This document shows positions 7,805 to 43,482 of a stretch of 46,086 nt of DNA, one piece after another. The position numbers and the translations under genes were made by a program. Origin of the DNA: Oscillospiraceae bacterium (lineage in GTDB: Bacteria > Bacillota > Clostridia > Oscillospirales > Oscillospiraceae); NCBI GenBank assembly GCA_017524845.1, contig JAFXUU010000049.1, forward strand, positions 1-46,086, in the 5' to 3' direction. Position 1 is the stretch's first letter, and the number at the start of each line of letters is the position of its first letter. The notes beneath the pieces were generated by a model, which was given only the letters and a program-made list of their open reading frames with translations, did not search any database and was not told the origin of the DNA.

Positions 7805-8794
7805 TTACCCGATGGGGTGCTTCTGCGCGAACTCGCGCCCGTATTTCTCCAGCTCGTCCCGATAAAGCTCGTTGTTCCGCCGGAGGAAGCAGACGCCGTT
7901 GGGGATGGAGGGATAGAACCGGCCTCCGGGGCAATAGGTGTCGATGGCGCGGCGCACCTCGGCGCGAACGTCCTCGTCGGAGATGTTCTCCACGTCGATC
8001 TTGGGCCCGTCCACCCCGCCCACCATGGCCAGCTTCCCTTCGGTGATGCGCTGGATCTCCACGATGTCGTTCTGGGGGATGACGCCCTGCCAGATGTCGA
8101 TGCCCAACTCCACCATGTCCTTCACGATGGGCTGGCAGATACAGTCGGCATGGTGCATATAAATCATTCCGGCCTCATGGATGGCGTCGGCGATCTCCGT
8201 CTGCAGGGGCTTGATGATCTCCCGCCATACGTCGGGCGGCAGAAACACGTTCTGCTTGCTGCCCCAGTCGTCGTGGTAGAAAATGATATCCGGATGCACC
8301 TGCTTCCCCATCTCCCGGATGTAGCCGATCTTGTGGTCCGCGATGGCCCGGAGCATGCCCGCCATCTCCTCCGGGTATTCCAGATAGGCGCACAGGGCGT
8401 TCACCATCCCCATCAGGTGGTGGGAACGCTCGAAGAGGCCGCCGCTGAACATGATCCCCACCAGCTTCTCCCGGCGGTCCGTCTCGTCGGCGACTTTTTT
8501 GGCCATACTCCAATCCCACCCCTCCCAGGGGGGGACCACCAGATCCTCCTGCCAGCGCTCGATATCCTTGATGACCGCGTTTTCCTCCGTCACGTGGGGA
8601 TGCGCGCCCGGGGAGCCGGGCTTGAAAACATAGACGGTGCCCCAGAGGTCCTTGTGCTCCAGCCCGTCCTGGGGAACGCGGGACGCGGTCAGGATGGGGT
8701 CCGGCAGCAGCTGGATCGCATCCATCAGGTCGCCGTAGTAATCCGGCTGCCGGCGTTCATAGATCGCCATGGCATTTTCACGCGGTGTAAGCAT
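7805..8794 (-). CDS. Uroporphyrinogen decarboxylase-family (corrinoid methyltransferase-like) protein
   Basis: A 329-aa URO-D-superfamily protein, closer in style to the MtaA/CmuA methyltransferases than to HemE. It contains HHADCIC, compatible with the His/Cys zinc site of those methyltransferases, and a typical C-terminal GGVDGP segment. I chose the ATG at 8794 because GGGAGGAG lies just before it. The promoter at 8845-8873 puts the transcript start near a possible upstream Met at 8842, which excludes that start. It is monocistronic. Such proteins usually transfer methyl groups between a corrinoid and a thiol or demethylate a substrate; no corrinoid protein gene is adjacent, so the substrate is unknown. 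Confidence 0.82.
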
Positions 8795-8844
8795 AGCTCC
8801 TCCCACCGGCCCAGAGGCCGTTATCTGTATAGTATCCGCCAAAA

Positions 8845-10409: not shown

Positions 10410-11594
10410 TTGAACAATACGGGCAAGCGGCGAAGATTCATCATCAACGTCGCCTACTGGGCCATCATCGCGGCCATCGCGTATTTTTTCTTTCGCTATC
10501 TGCTGAACCTGCTGCTGCCCTTTGTGATCGCGCTTCTGGTGTCCTGGCTGCTGCGGCCCCTGGGCAAGCTGTACCGCCGCAAGCTCCCCCGCCACGGGAA
10601 GCTGGTCACCGCCCTCACGGTGGCCACGGTGCTGATCTTCTATCTGCTCATCGGCGTAATAGCGATGCTGCTCCTGGTGGATCTGGTCACCAGGGCGGCG
10701 GAACGCTTCGGCCAGCTGCCCGCCCTCTATACGCAGACCCTCGAGCCGGGGCTGCGCAACCTGTATGAGGACGCCAGGAACCTGGCGGCCCGCTTCGATC
10801 CCGCTGTGGCGGACGTGGTGAACCAGGTGCTGCCCCAGGTGATCAGCTCCGTGAGCGGAGCGGTCACCAACTTCTCCGTGGGCGCCGTGGGCAAGCTCAC
10901 CGGCCTCGTCACCTCCGTCCCCTCCTTCCTGATCTCCGCCCTCATCGCCGTGATCGCCACCATTTTCACCTCCGTCTCCTACGACCGCATGAAGGAGTTT
11001 CTCCTGCGCAACCTGCCCGCCAAGTTCACCGAGACCGCGGGCTACGTGGTGTCCAGCTTCCGAAGCATCCTGGGGCAGTACGGCAAGAGCTATCTGCTGG
11101 TGATGCTCATCACCTTCGGAGAGCTGACGGCGGGCCTGCTGATCATCGGCGTGAAGCAGCCCATCCTGGCAGCGGTGCTGATCGCCATTTTCGACATCTT
11201 CCCCATCGTGGGGGCAGGCATGATCCTCCTCCCCTGGGCCCTGATCTCCCTCATCCAGAAGAAAGTGCTGCAGGCGATCGGCCTGGCGTTGCTCTACGTG
11301 GTCATCATCGTGGTGCGCCAGTTCCTGGAGCCCAAGGTGGTTGGGAAGCAGGTCGGCCTGCCGCCGCTGGTGACGCTGATCTGCATGTTCGTGGGCAGCA
11401 GCCTCTTCGGCGTCTGGGGCCTCTTCGGTCTGCCCATCGGCGCCGCCATCCTGGTGAACCTCAACGACGATCCCAACATCCCCATCAAACTCTTCACCAA
11501 CCCTCCCGACGAGGAGGCGCAGCCGCAGGGCGGAAAGATCATCTACCGCTTCCGCCGCCGGGGCGAGAAGGCCGGGAAGCAAAAAAAGTCTTGA
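10410..11594 (+). CDS. AI-2E family transporter, YtvI-like
   Basis: A 394-aa polytopic membrane protein of the AI-2E/PerM family. It has two N-terminal helices, a central amphipathic region (residues about 85-170) and a C-terminal bundle containing FDIFPIVGAGMILLPWA, a characteristic family segment. The start is TTG, 7 bases after AAAGGAGG. The clostridial sporulation protein YtvI belongs to this family and the genome is a spore former, but a sporulation role is inference. It ends just before the rplU promoter. Confidence 0.83.
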   Translation: MNNTGKRRRFIINVAYWAIIAAIAYFFFRYLLNLLLPFVIALLVSWLLRPLGKLYRRKLPRHGKLVTALTVATVLIFYLLIGVIAMLLLVDLVTRAAERFGQLPALYTQTLEPGLRNLYEDARNLAARFDPAVADVVNQVLPQVISSVSGAVTNFSVGAVGKLTGLVTSVPSFLISALIAVIATIFTSVSYDRMKEFLLRNLPAKFTETAGYVVSSFRSILGQYGKSYLLVMLITFGELTAGLLIIGVKQPILAAVLIAIFDIFPIVGAGMILLPWALISLIQKKVLQAIGLALLYVVIIVVRQFLEPKVVGKQVGLPPLVTLICMFVGSSLFGVWGLFGLPIGAAILVNLNDDPNIPIKLFTNPPDEEAQPQGGKIIYRFRRRGEKAGKQKKS

Positions 11595-34755: not shown

Positions 34756-35571
34756 TCATTTGACGCAGCCGGAAGGCGCGTCTTCCCCGGACAGAAGGCC
34801 GCAGGCGTCCGCCCGGCAGCCGGCGCAGACGCGCATCTGCGGGAGGATGTGCTCCAACTGCTCCCGCAGGGCGGCCAGGGTCTCCGGGGAGGGCGGCGTG
34901 AGCTGCCGCAGCCGCCCCGCGGGGCGAAGAGGCATCACGTTCTGCAGCGCCGCGCCCCGGGCGCGCACGGCCCGGGCGATCTCCGGCAGCTCCTCCCCGT
35001 TGCAGCCGGGGACCAGCACGGTGTTCACCTTCACGGTCATTCCCAGGGCGCTGCAGCGCCGGATGCCCTCCAGTTGGGCGGCGATGAGGGCTTCGCCTCC
35101 CGCCGTCCCTTCGGGCCCGTCCCTCCGGGGGCTCAGCCTGGCGCTCACCTCCGGACGCAGGGTGTTGACCGTCACCGTCACGGCAGAGACGCCCACTTCC
35201 CGCAGGCGGGGGGCCGCCTCGGGCAGGAGGGAGCCGTTGGTCCCCAGGCAGAGGATCCGGTCGGGAAAGCTCCGGCGGAGGATCTCCAGCACGGAGAAGG
35301 TCTCCGGATTGTACAGCGGCTCCCCCGGCCCCGCGATCCCCAGGACGCGGATCTCCGGGCGGGCTGCCAGGCGTTCCGAAACGTAGTCCGCCGCTTCCTC
35401 CGGGCGGACGAGGCGCAGGGCCCTGCCGGGCAGCTTCTCCTCTCCCCCGTCCAGGCCCCGGCCGCAGAAGGCGCAGTCCAGGTTGCAGCGCGCCGCGCAG
35501 GGGACGTGGAGCCGTCCGAAGCGCCGGTGGGCCTCCGGCGTAAAGCAGGGATGCTCCCGCAGATCGGTCAT
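34756..35571 (-). CDS. NifB-like radical SAM protein
   Basis: A 271-aa radical SAM enzyme with NifB hallmarks: HPCFTPEAHRRFGRLHVPC at the N terminus, the SAM-cluster motif CNLDCAFC (CX3CX2C), GIAGPGEPL, and the C-terminal CAGCRADACG, which corresponds to NifB CxxCRADAxG. It lacks a NifX-like domain, as do short NifB proteins. In nitrogenase systems NifB makes the carbide-containing iron-sulfur precursor NifB-co; here it may build or modify a cluster for the neighbouring nitrogenase-like enzyme. The ATG overlaps the nifH-like stop (ATGA). Last gene of the cluster; no clear terminator seen. Confidence 0.88.
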   Translation of the reverse strand: MTDLREHPCFTPEAHRRFGRLHVPCAARCNLDCAFCGRGLDGGEEKLPGRALRLVRPEEAADYVSERLAARPEIRVLGIAGPGEPLYNPETFSVLEILRRSFPDRILCLGTNGSLLPEAAPRLREVGVSAVTVTVNTLRPEVSARLSPRRDGPEGTAGGEALIAAQLEGIRRCSALGMTVKVNTVLVPGCNGEELPEIARAVRARGAALQNVMPLRPAGRLRQLTPPSPETLAALREQLEHILPQMRVCAGCRADACGLLSGEDAPSGCVK

Positions 35572-36404
35572 AGGTTTTCCTCCCGGAAGGCCGCCTCGGC
35601 CATCCGATCCCCCAGGGACTCCAGGGCTTCCCCGTCCAGAGGCTCGGGAACGACACCTTCCTCCGCCGTCAGGAAATGCCGGGCGAGGCTGCGGAAGCTT
35701 TGGGCAGAGGGGGCCTCCGGCGCGTGCTCCAGCACGGTCATGCGCTTCAGCTCCGCCCGGGTGATGGCCCGGTCCATGGGGATGCGCCCGACGACGGAGC
35801 TCCCGATCTTCCCGGCAAACTCCGAAACGAAGGCCTCGTCCCCCGCCGCGCTGCGGGCGTTGAATATGAGGCCGCCCAGGCGGCAGCCGCCCCGCTGGGC
35901 GTATTTCCGGATACAGGCGGCGATGTTGTTGGCGGCGTAGACGGCCATGAAATCCGAGGTTGTGACGATATAAGCCGTATCCGCCGCGTTGGCCCGCAGC
36001 GGCGTGCTGAAGCCGCCGCAGACCACGTCTCCCAGCACGTCGAAGAGGATGAGGTCCGGCTGCAGGCTCTCCACGATCTCCAGATCCCGGATGTCCTGGA
36101 GGGCCAGGGCGATGCCCCGGCCGGCGCAGCCCTCACCGGCCCTGGGTCCGCCGGATTCCAGACAGGCGACTCCGAAGGCCCCCCGGTGGAGGATGGCGTC
36201 CACGGGCGGTTCCCCGCCCAGGCGGGTGTGGGCGTCCAGAATGGTCTCGATGGTGCGGTGCATCAGCACGCGGGTGGTGTCCGCCTTCGGATCGCAGCCC
36301 ACCACCAGCACCCGCTTCCCCTCCGCGGCGGCGGCCGCCGCCGTGTTGGCCACCACCGTGGATTTCCCGATGCCGCCCTTTCCGTAAATGCAGATCCTTT
36401 TCAT
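35568..36404 (-). CDS. NifH-like nitrogenase-family iron protein
   Basis: A 278-aa ATP-dependent reductase of the NifH/BchL/CfbC family. P-loop GKGGIGKS at residues 8-15; [4Fe-4S] ligands Cys93 in GEGCAGRG and Cys129 in DVLGDVVCGGF, equivalent to Cys97 and Cys132 of classical NifH; switch region LVVGCDPKADTT. GAGGAGG precedes the ATG at 36404; a longer open frame upstream lies in the dispersed repeat. It should donate low-potential electrons to the two component-1-like proteins encoded upstream. A repeat of about 118 bp separates it from them. Confidence 0.93.
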   Translation of the reverse strand: MKRICIYGKGGIGKSTVVANTAAAAAAEGKRVLVVGCDPKADTTRVLMHRTIETILDAHTRLGGEPPVDAILHRGAFGVACLESGGPRAGEGCAGRGIALALQDIRDLEIVESLQPDLILFDVLGDVVCGGFSTPLRANAADTAYIVTTSDFMAVYAANNIAACIRKYAQRGGCRLGGLIFNARSAAGDEAFVSEFAGKIGSSVVGRIPMDRAITRAELKRMTVLEHAPEAPSAQSFRSLARHFLTAEEGVVPEPLDGEALESLGDRMAEAAFREENL

Positions 36405-36419
36405 TGATTTCGCCTCCTC

Positions 36420-36537
36420 ATACGAATCTTTCGTTGAAACCAGGCAGAGAATCGCGAGAATGATTTGTGTCAGCCGGGGCGAAGGACGGCGCGAATCAGG
36501 CCGCAAGGATTGTCGTATTTGAATGGAAGATTCGTAT
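36420..36537. repeat. Dispersed intergenic repeat, copy B, with terminal inverted repeats
   Basis: Ends ATACGAATCTTTC (36420-36432) and GGAAGATTCGTAT (36525-36537) are inverted repeats with one mismatch. The interior shares TTGAAACCAGGCA-like, GTCAGCCG and GGCGAAGGAC blocks with copy C at 44.7 kb. It lies inside the nitrogenase-like cluster and its edge touches the stop codon of the upstream gene. Confidence 0.7.
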
Positions 36538-37721
36538 CAGGGCTCAAACTGGCCGCGCCGCCGGTAGGGATAGGCGAGGACGCCGTTCAGGATGTCCGAC
36601 AGGAGATAAGCCAGCCCGTCGAACCCGGCGTAGGGCTGATAGCCCAGGGCTACGGCGTCCATCACGGGATAGGCGAAGCGGATGAGGCGCAGGGGCAGCT
36701 CGTCCTCCAGCTGCCGCTCGAAGGCGGAGCCGAAGACCAGAACTGCGCCCGAATCCCGCACCGCCTCCAGCCACCGCTCCCCGTCCTCGTGGGGGTCCAG
36801 GTCGTCCCGATAAGCGGCGATGCGGAGGCCCAGCTCCTCCTGCAGGAAGCGGCGCATGGCCGAGGCGCGCATATGGTCCCCCGCCACGGCGGCCTCCGCC
36901 TGATAGAGAAGGCGCAGCGGATGGACGACCTTTTCCGCCAGGTCGGCGGCCGCCTCCGTACCCCGGCGGATCGTCTCCCCGTGGTCGGCGCCCAGGGCTT
37001 CGTCCACGGCCCGGAGGAAAACGGCGCTCCCCTCGGCGCCGTAGGGATAGTCCACAGTGATGTACGCCGTGCCGAAGCGCTGCTTCAGGGCTTCCCCCAC
37101 CGCCTCGAAGCCCCGGAAAACGATATTGAGGCCCGCTTCCCCCCAGCGGCGGATGCCCTCCTCCGTCAGCATCGGCAGAGCGGCGTTCAGCCGTGTCTCC
37201 GGCTCCAGCATTTTTCGGATGGCGGCAAGGTCGGTTTCGCCCCGGTAGTCGTCGGCGGAAATGCCGACGAGGTTCACCGCCCGGGGATCCCGTTTGCCGC
37301 CGTCCTCCAGAAGGGGGACCAGGCGGCACATGGCGGCGATATAGCCCTCCCGCATGCTGCCCCGGTACCCCGCGGTATTGAACCAGTGGACGGGGAAGGG
37401 GCAGGCGGCCTGGCGGATCACCCCCTCGATATCGTCCCGGATCATGTCGGTGGGGCAGCCGTTGAGGACGAAGACCCGCTTCGGCCGCCGGGCCTTCAGG
37501 ATCTCCAGCGCCTCCCGGAGCTTCCCCTCCCCGCCGAAGACGATCTCCCGCTCATGGACCATGGTACCCGCCTGACGTACGTCGTCCTGGCGGCCCATCT
37601 GACGCAGAGCGAGGGCTCCCCAGGAGCAGCCGGATACCGAGTGGACCAGCAGAAAAGCGTCCTTTACGCTGACAAAGGCGCGGTATGCGCCCAGATAAAA
37701 GCAGCCCTGTCCCGGCTTCAT
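36537..37721 (-). CDS. Nitrogenase component 1-like protein (three-Cys subunit)
   Basis: A 394-aa member of the NifD/K/E/N superfamily. Three cysteines sit at Cys7 (GCFYLGA), Cys32 (HSVSGCSWG) and Cys89 (LNGCPTDMIRDDIEG), with spacings 25 and 57 close to the P-cluster cysteines of NifK; IVFGGEGKLREAL is the conserved block between them. The start ATG at 37721 overlaps the upstream stop (ATGA); a longer frame exists but is not needed. It forms the catalytic heterodimer with the next upstream gene product. Too short and divergent for true NifK; it belongs among nitrogenase-like reductases of unknown substrate. Confidence 0.88.
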   Translation of the reverse strand: MKPGQGCFYLGAYRAFVSVKDAFLLVHSVSGCSWGALALRQMGRQDDVRQAGTMVHEREIVFGGEGKLREALEILKARRPKRVFVLNGCPTDMIRDDIEGVIRQAACPFPVHWFNTAGYRGSMREGYIAAMCRLVPLLEDGGKRDPRAVNLVGISADDYRGETDLAAIRKMLEPETRLNAALPMLTEEGIRRWGEAGLNIVFRGFEAVGEALKQRFGTAYITVDYPYGAEGSAVFLRAVDEALGADHGETIRRGTEAAADLAEKVVHPLRLLYQAEAAVAGDHMRASAMRRFLQEELGLRIAAYRDDLDPHEDGERWLEAVRDSGAVLVFGSAFERQLEDELPLRLIRFAYPVMDAVALGYQPYAGFDGLAYLLSDILNGVLAYPYRRRGQFEP

Positions 37722-39232
37722 GTCCCTTCCCCCCTGTTCTGCCACAGCTTTCGCCACAGCTCCCGGGCCAGAGCGTCTCCCTCGTTGTCCGTCTGGGGAT
37801 AGAGGCCCGGAGCGTAGCGCACCCGGTTGAGCAGGAGCCGGTTGCCCGTCGGCAGCTTGTTCAGCCCCGAGGCCAGGTACTCCGCGTTCCTGCACATGTT
37901 CTCCGGGTCCAGCGGGGCCACGAAGAGCAGATCGTCGGAGAGGATGGGCTTGCCGGGGCAGAGCAGTTGGGTCTCCGGATTGGCGATCATCAGGTCGGCC
38001 CCCTCGGTCAACTCCCGGAGCTGGGCTTTGTCCGGATCCACCACCAGCTCCCCGGGAACGCCGCAGAGCTCCATGGCCCGCCGGATGTTGGCCAGGATGT
38101 CTTCCACCATCTCCCCGTCCAGATCCGACTGACGCAGGGCCTCCGGGGAAATGCGGGCCACCACGTCCGTCACGGGGATGCCCGCCCCCTTCACCGCCTG
38201 CACGAGCTGATTCGGGATGGCGGAAAAGGAACGGGGCAGCAGCAGCACCCGCTTGCCCTCGTAGGCGCGGCTGCAGGCCTCGAAGCGCTCCCGGGCAGGG
38301 CGCATCCGGGCTTCAAAGATCCGGTCCACGTCCGCATGCAGCTCCAGCTTTTCCGCCACGTCCCGGTAGAAGCGGAGGATGCCCTCCAGACCCACGTAGC
38401 GGGCAAAGCCGTGGACGTGGAGATAGGGGATGCCGTAACGCTTCTGCAATGCGGCCGCCCAGCGCACCCGCCGGGCGACGTTCAGCTGGGCAGCCGGAGC
38501 CTCGGCGATCTCCCGGGCGGTGCAGGCGGGAAGGCAGGCCCGGAGCCGGAGTCCCATCTCCCGGAGCATGCCGTCCATCCCCCGGAGCAGGAGCCTCCCG
38601 CCGTAGCCCCAGGAATAGCCTTCCACGTTCACCGTGCCCGGTTCCGTCTCCCGGGGCTCCATCAGCTGCTCGGCCAGGGTGAGCATCGCCTCGGAAAAGC
38701 CGCAGCCCTTGCTGTCCGTATTCCGGGACGGCTCCGCGCTGCCCCAGCTCTTCAGGCCCTCCCGGCGGCTGCGGCGCATGACCGTCTTGTCGATGTGGGA
38801 GAAGACCTCCGAGCGCACCGCCAGCACCGGGCAGCCGGTGAGCTGCGCCGCCGTGCGGGCGACGCCGGGGAGATCGCACTGCATCACGTCGCTGGCGACC
38901 GTCGGGATCAGGACGGCGCAGCCGGGCTTCCGCTCCCGGATGAGGCGCAGGGTCAGCGCCAGCAGCTTTTCCTCTCCGCCGGCCACGACCTCGGCCTCCG
39001 TGAGATCGTCGGACTCCAGGGCGTAGGCGGGGAGCCAGCGGCGGCGGGCATAGTAGCGGTAGTGATAAGCACAGCCCTTGGGGCCGTGGAGAATGAGCAC
39101 CGCGTCGCGGATCTGGGCAAAGGCCTCCAGATTGCCGGAGACCTTCCCGTTCACCCCCTGCTGATGGTTGACGGCCGCGTTGTGCAGCCCCATGAACACG
39201 CGGTCCCGCTCGTATTCGTAAAAGGGATCCAA
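37718..39232 (-). CDS. Nitrogenase component 1-like protein (one-Cys subunit)
   Basis: A 504-aa NifD/E-like protein. HGPKGC (Cys54) matches the second P-cluster cysteine of NifD; the AEVVAGGEEKL block follows. Residues aligned with the first and third P-cluster cysteines are not Cys (Asn28 region, IPTVASDV). The start is TTG at 39232, seven bases after GGAGG, giving MDPFYEYERD. Its stop overlaps the partner gene. Paired with the three-Cys partner it could bind a 3+1 cysteine [4Fe-4S] cluster as in dark-operative protochlorophyllide/chlorophyllide reductases (inference). Confidence 0.86.
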   Translation of the reverse strand: MDPFYEYERDRVFMGLHNAAVNHQQGVNGKVSGNLEAFAQIRDAVLILHGPKGCAYHYRYYARRRWLPAYALESDDLTEAEVVAGGEEKLLALTLRLIRERKPGCAVLIPTVASDVMQCDLPGVARTAAQLTGCPVLAVRSEVFSHIDKTVMRRSRREGLKSWGSAEPSRNTDSKGCGFSEAMLTLAEQLMEPRETEPGTVNVEGYSWGYGGRLLLRGMDGMLREMGLRLRACLPACTAREIAEAPAAQLNVARRVRWAAALQKRYGIPYLHVHGFARYVGLEGILRFYRDVAEKLELHADVDRIFEARMRPARERFEACSRAYEGKRVLLLPRSFSAIPNQLVQAVKGAGIPVTDVVARISPEALRQSDLDGEMVEDILANIRRAMELCGVPGELVVDPDKAQLRELTEGADLMIANPETQLLCPGKPILSDDLLFVAPLDPENMCRNAEYLASGLNKLPTGNRLLLNRVRYAPGLYPQTDNEGDALARELWRKLWQNRGEGT

Positions 39233-39259
39233 TGCTTTCCCTCCTTCCGGGAGAACAGC

Positions 39260-39302
39260 GCATCCTTCGGCGGGCGCCGCGGAGAAGCCCGCCGAAGGAT
39301 GC
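39260..39302. other. 16-bp perfect intercistronic hairpin
   Basis: GCATCCTTCGGCGGGC (39260-39275) pairs with its exact complement (39287-39302). On the minus strand no U tract follows, so it is probably an mRNA processing/stability or attenuation element between importer and nitrogenase-like genes; on the plus strand GTCTTTTC follows. Confidence 0.65.
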
Positions 39303-39308
39303 GTCTTT

Positions 39309-40103
39309 TCAGTTTCCCGTGCTTTGCCGGAGCGCGGCGCTCAGGCAGGCCCGCCGGGACAGGGACTCGATGTCCACGATGTGGAGCTCGCTCCTGTACA
39401 GCGGGCGCAGATTTTCCTCCGTCACGATCTCCTCCGCCGGGCCTACCCGGAGGATGCCGCTGCGGTCCAGCAGCGCGGCTTTTTCCCCCAGGAGCACCGC
39501 GTGGTTGGGATCGTGGGTGGTCATGATAACGGAATAGCCCTTGGCCTGGAGCTCCCGCACCAGCTCCAGGATCAGCGTGGAGCGGCCGAAATCCAGGTGG
39601 GAGGTGGGTTCATCCAGGAGGATGGCCTTGGGCTGCTGGGTCAGGGCCCGGGCGATCAGCACCAGCTGCCGCTCGCCGCCGCTGATGGCCGTATAGGGCC
39701 TCTCGGCCAGGTGGGCGATGCCCAGGGTCTCCAGGGCCTGCATGGCGATGGCCCGGTCCTCCGCCTTGGGCCGGGAGAACACGCCCACCCTGGCGGCCCG
39801 GCCCATCATGACGAAATAGATCACGGTGTAATCGAAGACGGCGATATGCGTCTGCTGCACGTAGCCGATGAGGCCCGCCACCTCCTTCACGGAGAGCTTG
39901 TCCATGGGACTGCCCCCCAGAAGGATCTCGCCTCCCGTGGGACGGCGGATGTTGGCCAGGCAGTTGAAAAGGGTGCTCTTGCCCGCCCCGTTGGGCCCCA
40001 GGATGGTGAGCACCTCCCCTTCGTCCAGGGTAAAGGAGGCGTCGTTGATCACCTGATGGCCGTTGGGATAGGCAAAGCGCAGGCCGCGAACGTCGTAGAT
40101 CAC
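39309..40103 (-). CDS. FecE/BtuD-type ABC importer ATPase
   Basis: A 264-aa ATPase of type II importers for chelated metals or cobalamin: Walker A GPNGAGKST, Q-loop YVQQTH, signature ISGGERQLV, Walker B ILLDEPTSHLD and H-loop TTHDPNHA. The start is GTG, overlapping the permease stop (GTGA), with AAAGGAG upstream. It powers the FecCD-type permease encoded immediately before it. Confidence 0.92.
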   Translation of the reverse strand: MIYDVRGLRFAYPNGHQVINDASFTLDEGEVLTILGPNGAGKSTLFNCLANIRRPTGGEILLGGSPMDKLSVKEVAGLIGYVQQTHIAVFDYTVIYFVMMGRAARVGVFSRPKAEDRAIAMQALETLGIAHLAERPYTAISGGERQLVLIARALTQQPKAILLDEPTSHLDFGRSTLILELVRELQAKGYSVIMTTHDPNHAVLLGEKAALLDRSGILRVGPAEEIVTEENLRPLYRSELHIVDIESLSRRACLSAALRQSTGN

Positions 40104-41155
40104 TGCAGTTCTCCTTTGCGGCGGCGCATCAGGGCGATGTAGAAGGGAGCGCCGATCAGGCTCGTGAGGATGCTGATGGGCACCTCCATGCCGCTGATGT
40201 TGCGGGCGGTGGTGTCGACGACGATCATGAACACCGCGCCCAGCAGGCAGGATACCGGCATATAGCGGGTGCTGTGAGCGCCGACGAGCATGCGGGCGAA
40301 ATGGGGGATGACCAGGCCGATCCAGCCGATGGTGCCGCAGATGCAGACGGAGGAGGCCGTCAGCAGAGAGGCGCAGACGATGGCCAGGTTGCGGATGGGC
40401 TTGAATTTGGCCCCCAGGAGCTTCGCCTCCGTCTCCCCCATGGAGAGCACGTCGATCCACCAGGAGATCAGCAGCAGGACCGCCATGCTCACGATGATGG
40501 GGATCAGCACGCTGAGGATGTCCGGATAGCGGACCGAGGCGAAGGAGCCCATCTGCCAGAAGGTGATGGCCTGGAGCTGGCTCCTGGGATCGGCCACGTA
40601 TTTGATCATGCCCAGAAAGGAGCCCATGAGGCCGGAGACGATGACGCCGGAGAGCACCAGCATGATGTTGGAGGTGCTGCCCAGCAGCTTGGGGATCAGC
40701 AGCGTCAGGGCGACGGCCAGGAGTCCCGTGACGAAGGCCATGATCTGCGTGGTCACCGGGCTCCAGTTCATGAGGATGGAGAGGGCCGCGCCGACGCAGG
40801 CCCCGGAGGACACGCCCAGCAGATCGGGGGAAACCAGAGGATTGCGGAAAATGCCCTGATACACGGAGCCGGAGAGAGCCAGGGAGGCCCCCACCAGGGC
40901 CGCGGCGATGATACGGGGCAGCCGGAGGAACAGCAGCACGTTTTCCTTCATGGCCTTCCAGTCGGGCTCGACGCCCCGGAGCTTCCCGATGAGGATGTGG
41001 AAGGTCTCCGGGATGGTCATGGAGTACTGCCCCAGACAGAGACAGACGATCACCAGGACCAGCAGGAGTACGGACAGGCCGATGATCCATGCCGCGATGG
41101 GGACGCCGTTTTTCCGCTGCTCCGCCCGGAGGGTGCGTTTCTCGTCCGCCCTCAT
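40100..41155 (-). CDS. FecCD/BtuC-type ABC importer permease
   Basis: A 351-aa permease with about ten helices: LRLPRIIAAALVGASLALSG, then YQGIFRNPLVSPDLLGVSSG and CGTIGWIGLVIPHFARM, all signature segments of the FecCD/BtuC family. It starts one base after the substrate-binding-protein stop and overlaps the ATPase gene. Substrates of the family are siderophores, haem and corrinoids; the cobalamin riboswitch upstream favours a corrinoid. Confidence 0.93.
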   Translation of the reverse strand: MRADEKRTLRAEQRKNGVPIAAWIIGLSVLLLVLVIVCLCLGQYSMTIPETFHILIGKLRGVEPDWKAMKENVLLFLRLPRIIAAALVGASLALSGSVYQGIFRNPLVSPDLLGVSSGACVGAALSILMNWSPVTTQIMAFVTGLLAVALTLLIPKLLGSTSNIMLVLSGVIVSGLMGSFLGMIKYVADPRSQLQAITFWQMGSFASVRYPDILSVLIPIIVSMAVLLLISWWIDVLSMGETEAKLLGAKFKPIRNLAIVCASLLTASSVCICGTIGWIGLVIPHFARMLVGAHSTRYMPVSCLLGAVFMIVVDTTARNISGMEVPISILTSLIGAPFYIALMRRRKGELQ

Positions 41156-41156
41156 A

Positions 41157-42299
41157 TCAGAAACCGAGCTGCTCTCTTGTTAGCTCAACGCCGTAGATGG
41201 TCTTGTAGAAATCCAGGGCCACGGCTTCCAGCTCCTCGTCGCTGAAGCGCTCGGGGTACATGCAGTGGATCATCCAGAGGACGCCCAGCTTGATGCTCAG
41301 GCTCGGGAACATCCACAGGTCCATGGCGCAGGGGGATTCGTAAACGTGGCCGTTCTTCACGGCGGTGAGGTCGGCGTTGGCGGGGTCTTCGATGGTGCTC
41401 TCCAGGGTATAATCCCGGCTGGTGAGGTTGTTGGCCATGAAGATGAAATCCGGATCCCATTCCATGACGCGCTCCATGCCGCCTTGGGCCCACAGCTCGC
41501 CCCGGCCGAAATCGGCGGCGGGGTTGATGCCTCCGGCCAGCTCGATAGCCATGCCCTGCAGCATGGTGTCCGGCGCGGTGGAGCCCACGTACTGGCCAAG
41601 GAAGATGGCCGTCTTTTTCTCGCTCTCGGGGATATCCTTCGTGAGATCCTCCGCCATTTTGGTCAGAGAATCATAGTAATCCAGGATCTCCCGAGCACGC
41701 TCCTGGCGGTTGAAGGCCAGGCCGAACATCTCGATGGCGTGCTTCATCTCCGCTTCGTCCTCGATGCGCAGGGCCAGCACGGGGATGCCCACGCTCTCGA
41801 TGGTCTCGATGAGCTTGCTGTTCCACTTCATCACCACCACGTCGGGCTCCAGCTCGATGATGGCCTCGGCGCTGGTGTTGCCGTCCCGCTTCAGGGAACC
41901 GCCGTTGGCCAGCTCCGGGTTCAGCATCAGGCAGAACTTGTCGGTAATCTCATTGACCAGCAGGTCGTCGATGTCCATGCAGATATAGTTCTTGACGCCC
42001 CAGCCCGCCACGACGCGCTCTACGTTTTTGGGCACCTCGACCTCCCGGCCGATGGAGTCGATGACGGTGATGGTATCCTTCTCAGGGGCGGGCGCTTCCG
42101 TGGGGGCGGGGGCCTCCGTGACAGGCGCTTCCGTGGGGGCGGGGGCCTCCGTTGCGGGGGCCTGCGTCGCCGGGGCCTGGGCAGCGGGGGCGGAAGCGGG
42201 GGCCTGCGTCGCCGGGGCCTGTGCGGAGCCGCCGCCGGCGCAGGTGGCCAGGCCGAACAGGAGGCAGAGGGCGAGGAGGAGCGCGGTCAGTCGTTTCAT
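41157..42299 (-). CDS. Substrate-binding lipoprotein of corrinoid/iron-chelate importer
   Basis: A 380-aa lipoprotein. Signal peptide with lipobox LATC (Cys about 20 from the ATG at 42299), then an Ala/Pro/Thr-rich linker of APATQAPA and TEAPAPTEAP repeats (about residues 25-75), then a BtuF/FecB-type domain beginning TVIDSIGREVEVPKNVERVV. The ATG at 42308 is rejected because it abuts the AAAGGA Shine-Dalgarno. It captures the ligand outside the membrane for the following permease/ATPase. First gene after the cobalamin riboswitch. Confidence 0.92.
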   Translation of the reverse strand: MKRLTALLLALCLLFGLATCAGGGSAQAPATQAPASAPAAQAPATQAPATEAPAPTEAPVTEAPAPTEAPAPEKDTITVIDSIGREVEVPKNVERVVAGWGVKNYICMDIDDLLVNEITDKFCLMLNPELANGGSLKRDGNTSAEAIIELEPDVVVMKWNSKLIETIESVGIPVLALRIEDEAEMKHAIEMFGLAFNRQERAREILDYYDSLTKMAEDLTKDIPESEKKTAIFLGQYVGSTAPDTMLQGMAIELAGGINPAADFGRGELWAQGGMERVMEWDPDFIFMANNLTSRDYTLESTIEDPANADLTAVKNGHVYESPCAMDLWMFPSLSIKLGVLWMIHCMYPERFSDEELEAVALDFYKTIYGVELTREQLGF

Positions 42300-42388
42300 G
42301 GGGATCATCCTTTCTTTTCGCTGCGGCGGCGTACGATCCCGGCGCGGGATGCGCGCCGGGAACCGTATGGCGCAGCCAGATTATATCG

Positions 42389-42425
42389 CCGCAAAAAGAA
42401 AGCCGCTTTCCGGGCGGAAAGCGGC
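42389..42425 (-). terminator. Riboswitch-controlled terminator
   Basis: Minus strand: AGCCGCTTTCC pairs with GGAAAGCGGCT (11 bp, short GCCC loop), then TTCTTTTTG. It lies between the riboswitch and the lipoprotein start, fitting transcription attenuation. Confidence 0.88.
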
Positions 42426-42504
42426 TGCACCGACATGGGGAAAGAGGCCTGCGCGAGCGCAAGCCGGGTTCCTGGTCAGATGAAGTACTTTCTGCGGAAG
42501 ATAT

Positions 42505-42690
42505 TCACCGTTCCTTCCAAGCAGGTCTCCTGGCTTGCGGATCTCCGCGGCGCTGCGCCTTCTCATCCTTTGCGGACAATGGCCCTTGCAGCCCGCTCCC
42601 CGTTTACAGTGACCGGATCGCTGAGGATTTGCACCTCATTCCCTATTATCCTCCCCCGAACGGGAGGCACTCGGAAAGTGATATGAAGTT
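42505..42690 (-). ncRNA. Cobalamin riboswitch
   Basis: Minus strand shows the conserved cobalamin elements in order: GAGTGCC, ATAATAGGGAA, GAGGTGCAAATCC, GGTCACTGTAAACGGGGAGC and, at the 3' side, the B12 box AAGCCAGGAGACCTGC (around 42518-42535). Together with the following terminator this predicts shut-off of the importer (and possibly the nitrogenase-like genes) when corrinoid is plentiful. Confidence 0.93.
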
Positions 42691-42901: not shown

Positions 42902-42943
42902 TTAGCACTCCCCTATTGACAGTGCTAATTTCGAGGCTATAAT
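42902..42943 (+). promoter_or_regulatory. CIRCE operator overlapping the hsp20 promoter
   Basis: TTAGCACTC (42902-42910), 9-bp spacer, CAGTGCTAA (42920-42928): the HrcA operator with one mismatch. TTGACA (42916-42921), 16 bp, TATAAT (42938-42943) overlaps it, so HrcA would block this promoter. The stretch 42700-42900 holds no recognised gene. Confidence 0.88.
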
Positions 42944-43038: not shown

Positions 43039-43482
43039 ATGTTGCCGAGTATTTTTGGAGAGAATTTGTTTGACGACTGGTTCGACTTCCCATCCCTCAG
43101 GGAACTGCGGAACATCGACCGCAGGCTCTATGGGCGGAACGCCGCCAACGAGATGAAGACGGACGTGAAGGAGCATGAGGACCGCTACGAGGTGGACATC
43201 GACCTGCCCGGCTTCAAGAAGGAAGAGATCCAGCTGAACCTGGAGAACGGTTACCTCACCGTCACCGCCGCCAAGGGTCTGGAGAAGGAAGAGGAGAAGA
43301 AGGGCAAGCTCATCCGGCAGGAGCGCTGGGCGGGCACCCTCCAGCGCAGCTTCTACGTCGGGGAGGCCCTGGAGGAGACGGATATCGCCGCCCGCTTTGA
43401 AAACGGCGTCCTGAGCCTGCAGATCCCCAAGAAGGAAGAGAAGAAGCTGCCGGAGAAGAAGACCATCCTCATCGAAGGCTGA
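43039..43482 (+). CDS. Small heat-shock protein Hsp20
   Basis: A 147-aa alpha-crystallin-domain chaperone. The conserved domain covers residues about 37-130 (VDIDLPGFKKEEIQLNLENG; FENGVLSLQIPKK). The N-terminal aromatic-rich segment (FGENLFDDWFDF) is typical for oligomerisation. AAAGGAGG precedes the start. The CIRCE operator places it under HrcA heat-shock control; a strong terminator follows. Confidence 0.95.
   Translation: MLPSIFGENLFDDWFDFPSLRELRNIDRRLYGRNAANEMKTDVKEHEDRYEVDIDLPGFKKEEIQLNLENGYLTVTAAKGLEKEEEKKGKLIRQERWAGTLQRSFYVGEALEETDIAARFENGVLSLQIPKKEEKKLPEKKTILIEG

Follow-up and report, generated by a model that had tools for sequence, protein, structure and literature searches.

A cobalamin riboswitch heads an importer and a nitrogenase-like reductase cluster of a rare component-1-like family in an Oscillospiraceae bacterium

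A 46,086-nucleotide stretch of an Oscillospiraceae bacterium (the window; contig JAFXUU010000049.1 of assembly GCA_017524845.1) carries on its minus strand, in this order, a cobalamin riboswitch, a terminator and the genes of a binding lipoprotein, a permease, an ABC ATPase, two nitrogenase component-1-like proteins (D and K), a NifH-like Fe protein (H) and a NifB-like radical SAM protein (B). All these parts had been named in a sequence-only reading of the window, and each was recovered at its place, D and K as a PF00148 pair (Table 1). Here we examined what the riboswitch and the reductase have to do with each other. D and K belong to a rare family, and in a distant locus of this family a cobalamin riboswitch directly precedes D-K-H-B. 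Tentatively, and short of calling it probable, we propose that this nitrogenase-like reductase is made when B12 is scarce and stands in for, or bypasses, a corrinoid-dependent step.

The riboswitch of the window matched RF00174 over the whole model (E 2.3e-31; gathering score 31.5 bits). The terminator behind it consists of 11 pairs followed by TTCTTTTTGC. It was the longest stem of the scan and is placed where a riboswitch terminator is expected; the number of terminator-like sites (7 in 8.7 kb versus 4.6 ± 2.2 in shuffled sequences) is by itself no evidence. We examined 14 places with members of the family. Full-length D was present in 11, i.e. the window, L036, L038, L039, L040, L162, L164, L165, L179, L180 and L181; L046, L166 and L182 are incomplete. 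A cobalamin riboswitch was found in three of the 11, the window, L036 (115.8 bits) and L165. In L036 riboswitch and terminator occupy the same place as in the window. As D of L036 is 66% identical to that of the window, these two are close relatives and the three loci amount to two lineages only. The second lineage is remote: L165, from genome G1125, shares with the window 28% identity in D, 35% in K, 46% in H and 39% in B. There D-K-H-B is immediately preceded by a riboswitch (104.5 bits) and a terminator, with no other gene in between and about 180-200 bp from the riboswitch to the start codon of D (ATG at 10543 or 10519); tRNA genes lie upstream. Because riboswitch and terminator directly head D-K-H-B, this suggests a B12 regulon which includes the reductase itself and not an importer alone. 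The tie between riboswitch and reductase which the sequence-only reading had proposed thus goes beyond mere neighbourhood. That reading would have fallen had homologous clusters never carried the riboswitch or an importer. The riboswitch recurs as described, and a FecCD-type permease gene accompanies D-K on the same strand in all 11 full-length loci, drawn from three different permease clades (in L039 D-K and the importer are separated by three other transport genes; the contig of L040 ends after the ATPase gene). Among titles and abstract openings of open-licence papers, a weak source of evidence, none linked a cobalamin riboswitch with nitrogenase-like genes.

L165 also argues against the reductase as a bystander of a riboswitch which serves the importer only. 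In the window itself the reductase may be such a bystander because of a hairpin in the 76-bp gap between the ATPase and D genes; none of 200 shuffled sequences reached as low an energy. L036 has a hairpin of different sequence in the same gap. An inverted repeat in the 132-bp gap between K and H folded no better than shuffled sequences (z 0.59). The genes had been described as mostly overlapping. This held for permease/ATPase, D/K and H/B, and a single base pair (1 bp) separates the binding protein gene from the permease gene; it did not hold at these two gaps.

The surroundings of L165 bring in a different explanation. Downstream of B lies an importer with its own riboswitch (55.9 bits), whose permease shares 52.7% identity with a corrinoid-riboswitch permease; on the other side are ECF-type importer genes preceded by a partial riboswitch match (47.2 bits). 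Because of this corrinoid-uptake setting one may favour an action on corrinoids: H-D-K might reduce an imported or newly made corrinoid, e.g. Co(II) to Co(I) before adenosylation, or strip its upper ligand, and be induced at low adenosylcobalamin like salvage genes. DPOR, which likewise has no FeMo-type cofactor, acts on a tetrapyrrole, and the predicted fold of D ties with DPOR, NifEN, MoFe and MTR chains. With corrinoids as its substrates, the enzyme might be a corrinoid reductase that works under anaerobic conditions. We regard this as a serious rival, although as such rather unlikely. The window's own importer falls outside the corrinoid clade, eight of the 11 full-length loci lack a cobalamin riboswitch, and we know of no NifB-like protein that is needed for tetrapyrrole reduction. 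Both organisms may make corrinoid themselves, judged from their genes. The window genome has 11 cobalamin riboswitches, one of which precedes a tetrapyrrole methylase and CbiK; in G1125 a run behind another riboswitch was read by eye as importer plus cobalamin-pathway genes. Each of the eight genomes with a riboswitch-free locus holds 1 to 15 cobalamin riboswitches elsewhere.

How distinct are D and K? A profile from five D proteins returned full-length members with 433-798 bits and one fragment with 126.8 bits, versus 85.5 bits at most for other component-1 proteins among the matches listed. In a tree of 42 proteins 10 D proteins formed one clade and 11 K proteins another (both 100/100), apart from NifD, NifK, NifE, VnfD, VnfK, VnfE, VnfN and seven other pairs. 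The earliest branches of the K clade are L046, L165 and the window (supports 97/93 and 84/68). No D or K reached an NCBIfam equivalog cut-off; scores were at most 71.6 bits versus cut-offs of 324 or more. The best match of window D was NifE (71.6 bits, cut-off 505.1), as it was for D of L164 and L165, that of window K was BchB (71.0 bits, cut-off 490.35). By these profile and tree data D and K make up a family that is rare, clearly bounded and not covered by any NCBIfam equivalog. Above 100 bits it was seen in one of 398 genomes of the phylum, the window's own; it was absent from the six other genomes of the genus (drafts, 71-90% complete) and present in 9 of 206 genomes of the family to which G1125 belongs, two of them with fragments. 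These searches overlap and the counts cannot be added. A tblastn search with D against 72,556 plasmid records gave zero matches, and a pattern scan of named genome contigs, which does not amount to wide coverage, returned two loci only. Two places hold remnants: in L166 (9853-11303) a decayed D of 110 codons precedes a short, late-starting K, and in L182 (9415-10005) a D fragment, with two stops in the genome search, lies between two nitrogenase-type runs. No importer was seen at either.

The family has a characteristic cysteine pattern. One of the three P-cluster cysteines is kept in D (Cys54), and three cysteines are kept in K (Cys7, Cys32 and Cys89), each invariant in 11 of 11 proteins. At the place of Cys62, D has Gly in all five aligned rows; at that of Cys154 it has Val, Val, Thr, Thr and Ser, and D of L164 and L165 has an extra Cys one column off. 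The cofactor ligands Cys275 and His442 were absent in seven of seven aligned D rows. The predicted structure of D had a mean predicted local distance difference test score (pLDDT) of 74.2, with residues 52-75, including Cys54, below 50.

These features set the system apart from known relatives. NifHDK and NifEN share with it the fold, an Fe protein and a NifB-like partner; unlike nitrogenase, window D has no Cys275/His442 and a single cysteine, and all scores are far below the cut-offs. Diazotrophy was rejected on these grounds for D, K and H, as the sequence-only reading had expected, and no NifE/N/V was recognised in the run. Like DPOR (BchLNB), which has the component-1 fold without a FeMo-type cofactor, the window has this fold; its NifB-like partner, its cobalamin riboswitch and scores far below the cut-offs separate it from DPOR. 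All matches to DPOR, COR and CfbCD equivalogs were below their cut-offs. Methylthio-alkane reductase (MarBHDK) has Group IV-like H, D and K with a NifB-like partner as in the window, and MarD keeps three P-cluster cysteines where window D keeps one (PMC11423573); the fold of D ties with solved MTR chains. The isethionate reductase of Rhodobacter capsulatus (IsrBHDK), as far as the same source describes it, comes closest: a B, H, D, K set, one D plus three K P-cluster cysteines and no Cys275/His442. However, in IsrD the Cys62 place is taken by Arg and the Cys154 place by Pro/Ser, whereas D of the window family has Gly at the former. IsrB is closest to BciD and NifB-like only in the radical SAM motif, whereas window B is NifB-like over its core, and the Isr importer is SsuCAB instead of a FecCD-type importer with a cobalamin riboswitch (PMC11423573). 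Identity with Isr was therefore rejected on published features, the Cys62-place residue and the kind of B protein, despite the shared cysteine pattern. By the features tested the family is not Mar, DPOR, COR, Cfb or nitrogenase; Isr, Mar and Nfa are absent from our trees.

The likeness to Isr would be accounted for by an enzyme that reduces C-S bonds, in the manner of isethionate or methylthio-alkane reductase, and supplies sulfur or methanethiol for B12-free methionine synthesis. The B-H-D-K gene set and the one-plus-three cysteines would fit (PMC11423573). We consider this very improbable: no sulfonate importer or sulfur gene was recognised in the run, neither the residues in place of the lost cysteines nor the type of B protein agree with the description of Isr, and MarD, as described there, has three cysteines. 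The best match of D, NifE, and the permease beside D-K in every full-length locus point elsewhere. D-K could be a maturase or a metal-chelate reductase for the importer's cargo (molybdate or tungstate, vanadium, iron or cobalt complexes), with B12 control reflecting cobalt supply. The place of L040 within a vanadium-nitrogenase-type run agrees with this. On the other hand, NifE's cofactor-precursor ligand, at the Cys275 place, is missing from D, L040 already has real E/N-type proteins, and the riboswitch directly before D-K-H-B in L165 is left unexplained. Such a metal-handling role is in our view improbable.

Window H has both cluster cysteines, Cys93 and Cys129, as the sequence-only reading had claimed. 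It scored 320.1 bits with the NifH equivalog (cut-off 394.35) and shares one clade with H of L165 and L046. B matched TIGR01290 (nifB) over residues 3-264, below the cut-off of 343.65, and keeps the HPCF, CNxxCxxC and CxxCRAD motifs. Own H and B genes are present in the window and L165. L036 breaks off within K, and L046, whose contig begins inside D, has K and H; no importer was seen at the latter. The eight riboswitch-free loci have neither H nor B beside D-K; L040 adjoins a vnf-type run with its own NifH. Among these eight genomes, five were surveyed for nif and vnf genes (G033, G577, G599, G1140 and G1147; G1211, G1252 and G1253 were left out), and all five have them. A NifB or NifB-like protein was seen in G033, G577, G1140 and G1147 and not in G599. 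Because the five surveyed genomes whose D-K loci lack H and B have nif or vnf genes, we read this most simply as a need of D-K for both an Fe protein and a product of NifB, which it would borrow where a nitrogenase is present. In L040 (81-11682, minus strand) the D-K and importer genes directly follow the vanadium-nitrogenase-type run, which has H, D, G, K and two E/N-like genes; VnfD was above its cut-off, VnfK and VnfG just below. Elsewhere in the window's own genome, on contig C28 (L041:8269-10575, minus strand), a 768-residue fusion joins NifH-like and component-1-like parts. The H part of the fusion clusters with the H proteins of L044 and L050, apart from window H.

The importer of the window is probably of another kind than its riboswitch suggests. 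In a tree of 27 permeases the corrinoid-riboswitch permeases of L092, L094, L098, L099 and L100 formed one clade with that of L165 (100/100). The permeases of the window and L036 were in another clade of 11 (100/100). The window permease is 28% identical to corrinoid-riboswitch permeases of the same genus and family. Two members of its clade show a direct sign of molybdate or tungstate. The L198 permease sits behind a molybdenum cofactor (Moco) riboswitch (RF01055, 69.6 bits). The permease of L195, nearest to the window after L036 (50.9% identical), is preceded by a PF00174 molybdopterin-domain protein and has XdhABC-type genes nearby. The best solved relatives of the binding protein P0007 were 4ovk, 4hn9 and 3psa/HI_1472 (HI_1472 at E 1.2e-17), and the binding proteins of L195 and L198 have the same best solved relatives as that of the window, HI_1472 included. 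HI_1472 is MolA of a molybdate/tungstate importer (PMC3928620, PMC4031551). At E 0.001 no solved BtuF was among the matches of P0007. The window importer likely belongs with the probable molybdate/tungstate importers and probably is not a corrinoid importer, as far as phylogeny and solved relatives tell. MolBC-A of H. influenzae (HI1470-HI1472), as described in those sources, is like it a type II importer, with HI_1472 matched by P0007; unlike MolBC-A, to which identity is distant only, the window importer, whose ligand is putative, has a cobalamin riboswitch in front. With BtuFCD it shares the type II build behind a cobalamin riboswitch; it differs in a permease outside the corrinoid clade and in the BtuF result above.

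The sequence-only reading had left two ways open, a part in corrinoid acquisition or remodelling and a B12-independent substitute. The importer weakens acquisition; the substitute stands as a candidate. Two further loci, from genomes of the same family as the window's, deserve mention. L198 (78-5527, minus strand; G693) holds a Moco riboswitch with terminator, followed by permease, ATPase, binding protein, NifH-like and component-1-like genes; by its gene order it is a sister arrangement under a different riboswitch. In L050 (137-8832, minus strand; G699) importer, NifH-like, component-1-like, binding protein and HydF genes form one run, divergent from a cobalamin-riboswitch operon with a corrinoid-clade permease and a tetrapyrrole methylase.

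We favour a reductase that stands in for a corrinoid-dependent step because of the molybdate/tungstate-type importer of the window, the NifB-like protein and the riboswitch-free family members. This starts from what was observed, i.e. the genes, the riboswitch and terminator, the riboswitch before D-K-H-B in L165, the cysteine pattern and the importer clade. Adenosylcobalamin would bind the leader RNA and the terminator would form; without ligand the operon would be read. The H dimer would pass electrons with ATP to a D-K heterotetramer, presumably with an FeS cluster at the P-cluster position, held by one D cysteine and three K cysteines. The NifB-like protein would make a cluster needed by the enzyme, and the importer would supply molybdate or tungstate. 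Our most likely guess is that the reductase would then replace or bypass a corrinoid-dependent reaction. That a riboswitch represses a B12-independent enzyme is well established, as described for metE (PMC9600662). By analogy the reductase may replace a B12-dependent step as MetE replaces MetH. A bolder claim, a new functional class of NifB-dependent, ATP-driven reductases with a 1+3-cysteine cluster and a new Cys177 at the active-site face, which replaces a B12-dependent reaction when B12 or cobalt is short, is in our eyes doubtful. If it held, this enzyme would be the first B12-independent isozyme among known nitrogenase relatives.

Should the stand-in reading be true, nitrogenase chemistry would join the B12-sparing enzymes. 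For only a few nitrogenase-like enzymes is the reaction known. A cobalamin riboswitch before the reductase, which most relatives lack, is a physiological handle which shows when the cell wants the enzyme, so that the role of Group IV-like nitrogenase relatives becomes testable through B12 or cobalt supply.

Several observations weigh against the stand-in reading. The strong hairpin between importer and D could uncouple D-K-H-B from the riboswitch of the window. In eight of the 11 full-length loci no cobalamin riboswitch was found (the sequence of L040 reaches just 149 bp beyond the start of its first gene, and a leader there may have been missed). The L165 cluster, flanked by corrinoid-type importers, fits corrinoid handling equally. 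D without Cys275/His442 leaves it unclear whether a NifB product is used. As to the importer, L101, another cobalamin-riboswitch permease, is also outside the corrinoid clade, and seven of the nine clade members other than the window/L036 pair show no direct molybdate/tungstate sign. A laxer scan (E up to 1) of L195, L196, L197, L199 and L050, with L202 left out, gave no further Moco riboswitch. The binding protein of L195 has a weak match to solved BtuF as well (E about 3e-5), and HI_1472 weakly matches the binding protein of L038 (6.5e-9), which is from another clade.

The window is one entire contig (C104) of an incomplete draft genome (2.38 Mb, 153 contigs, 70.7% complete, 3.5% contaminated). 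Because the gene after B, which encodes a GAF/CAAX-protease-like protein, has its own promoter-like site at 34725-34697, the run probably ends with B. The G+C content of D-K-H-B is 68.7% versus a mean of 62.0% (standard deviation 4.7, highest 68.3) in sampled 4.5-kb windows; this excess is not decisive and a foreign origin by composition was not adopted.

Table 1. Features of the importer and reductase run in the window.
Feature	Coordinates	Strand	Basis
Cobalamin riboswitch aptamer	42503..42689	-	RF00174, model positions 1-189 of 189, cmscan 125.9 bits
Leader intrinsic terminator	42401..42426	-	11 pairs, then T-rich tail; belongs to predicted leader fold
Binding lipoprotein P0007, MolA-like by nearest solved relatives	41157..42299	-	PF01497 73.8 bits
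FecCD-family permease P0001	40100..41155	-	PF01032 282.5 bits; probable molybdate/tungstate importer clade 100/100
ABC ATPase P0002	39309..40103	-	PF00005 111.5 bits; GTG start at 40103 overlapping permease stop
Importer/reductase gap with 17-bp hairpin, no T run	39233..39308	-	-48.1 kcal/mol, z -4.9
D, component-1-like, 504 aa, P0003	37718..39232	-	PF00148 121.2 bits; family clade 100/100
K, component-1-like, 394 aa, P0004	36537..37721	-	PF00148 198.2 bits; family clade 100/100
H, NifH-like Fe protein, 278 aa, P0005	35568..36404	-	PF00142 301.8 bits; Cys93 and Cys129
B, NifB-like radical SAM protein, 271 aa, P0006	34756..35571	-	PF04055 73.3 bits; TIGR01290 227.1 bits

Three minor observations were made on the way. 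Very large secreted-type proteins are encoded behind cobalamin riboswitches in G1125 (L205:703-9277) and in the window genome (L089:623-4921). A gene at 7805-8842 of the window, minus strand, has a weak MtaA/CmuA-type methyltransferase match (about 30 bits versus cut-offs of 235 and more). At 42902-42943 lies an inverted repeat, which we take to be CIRCE-like and which shares positions with a perfect sigma-70-type promoter; a small heat-shock-like gene, read by eye, follows at 43039-43482.

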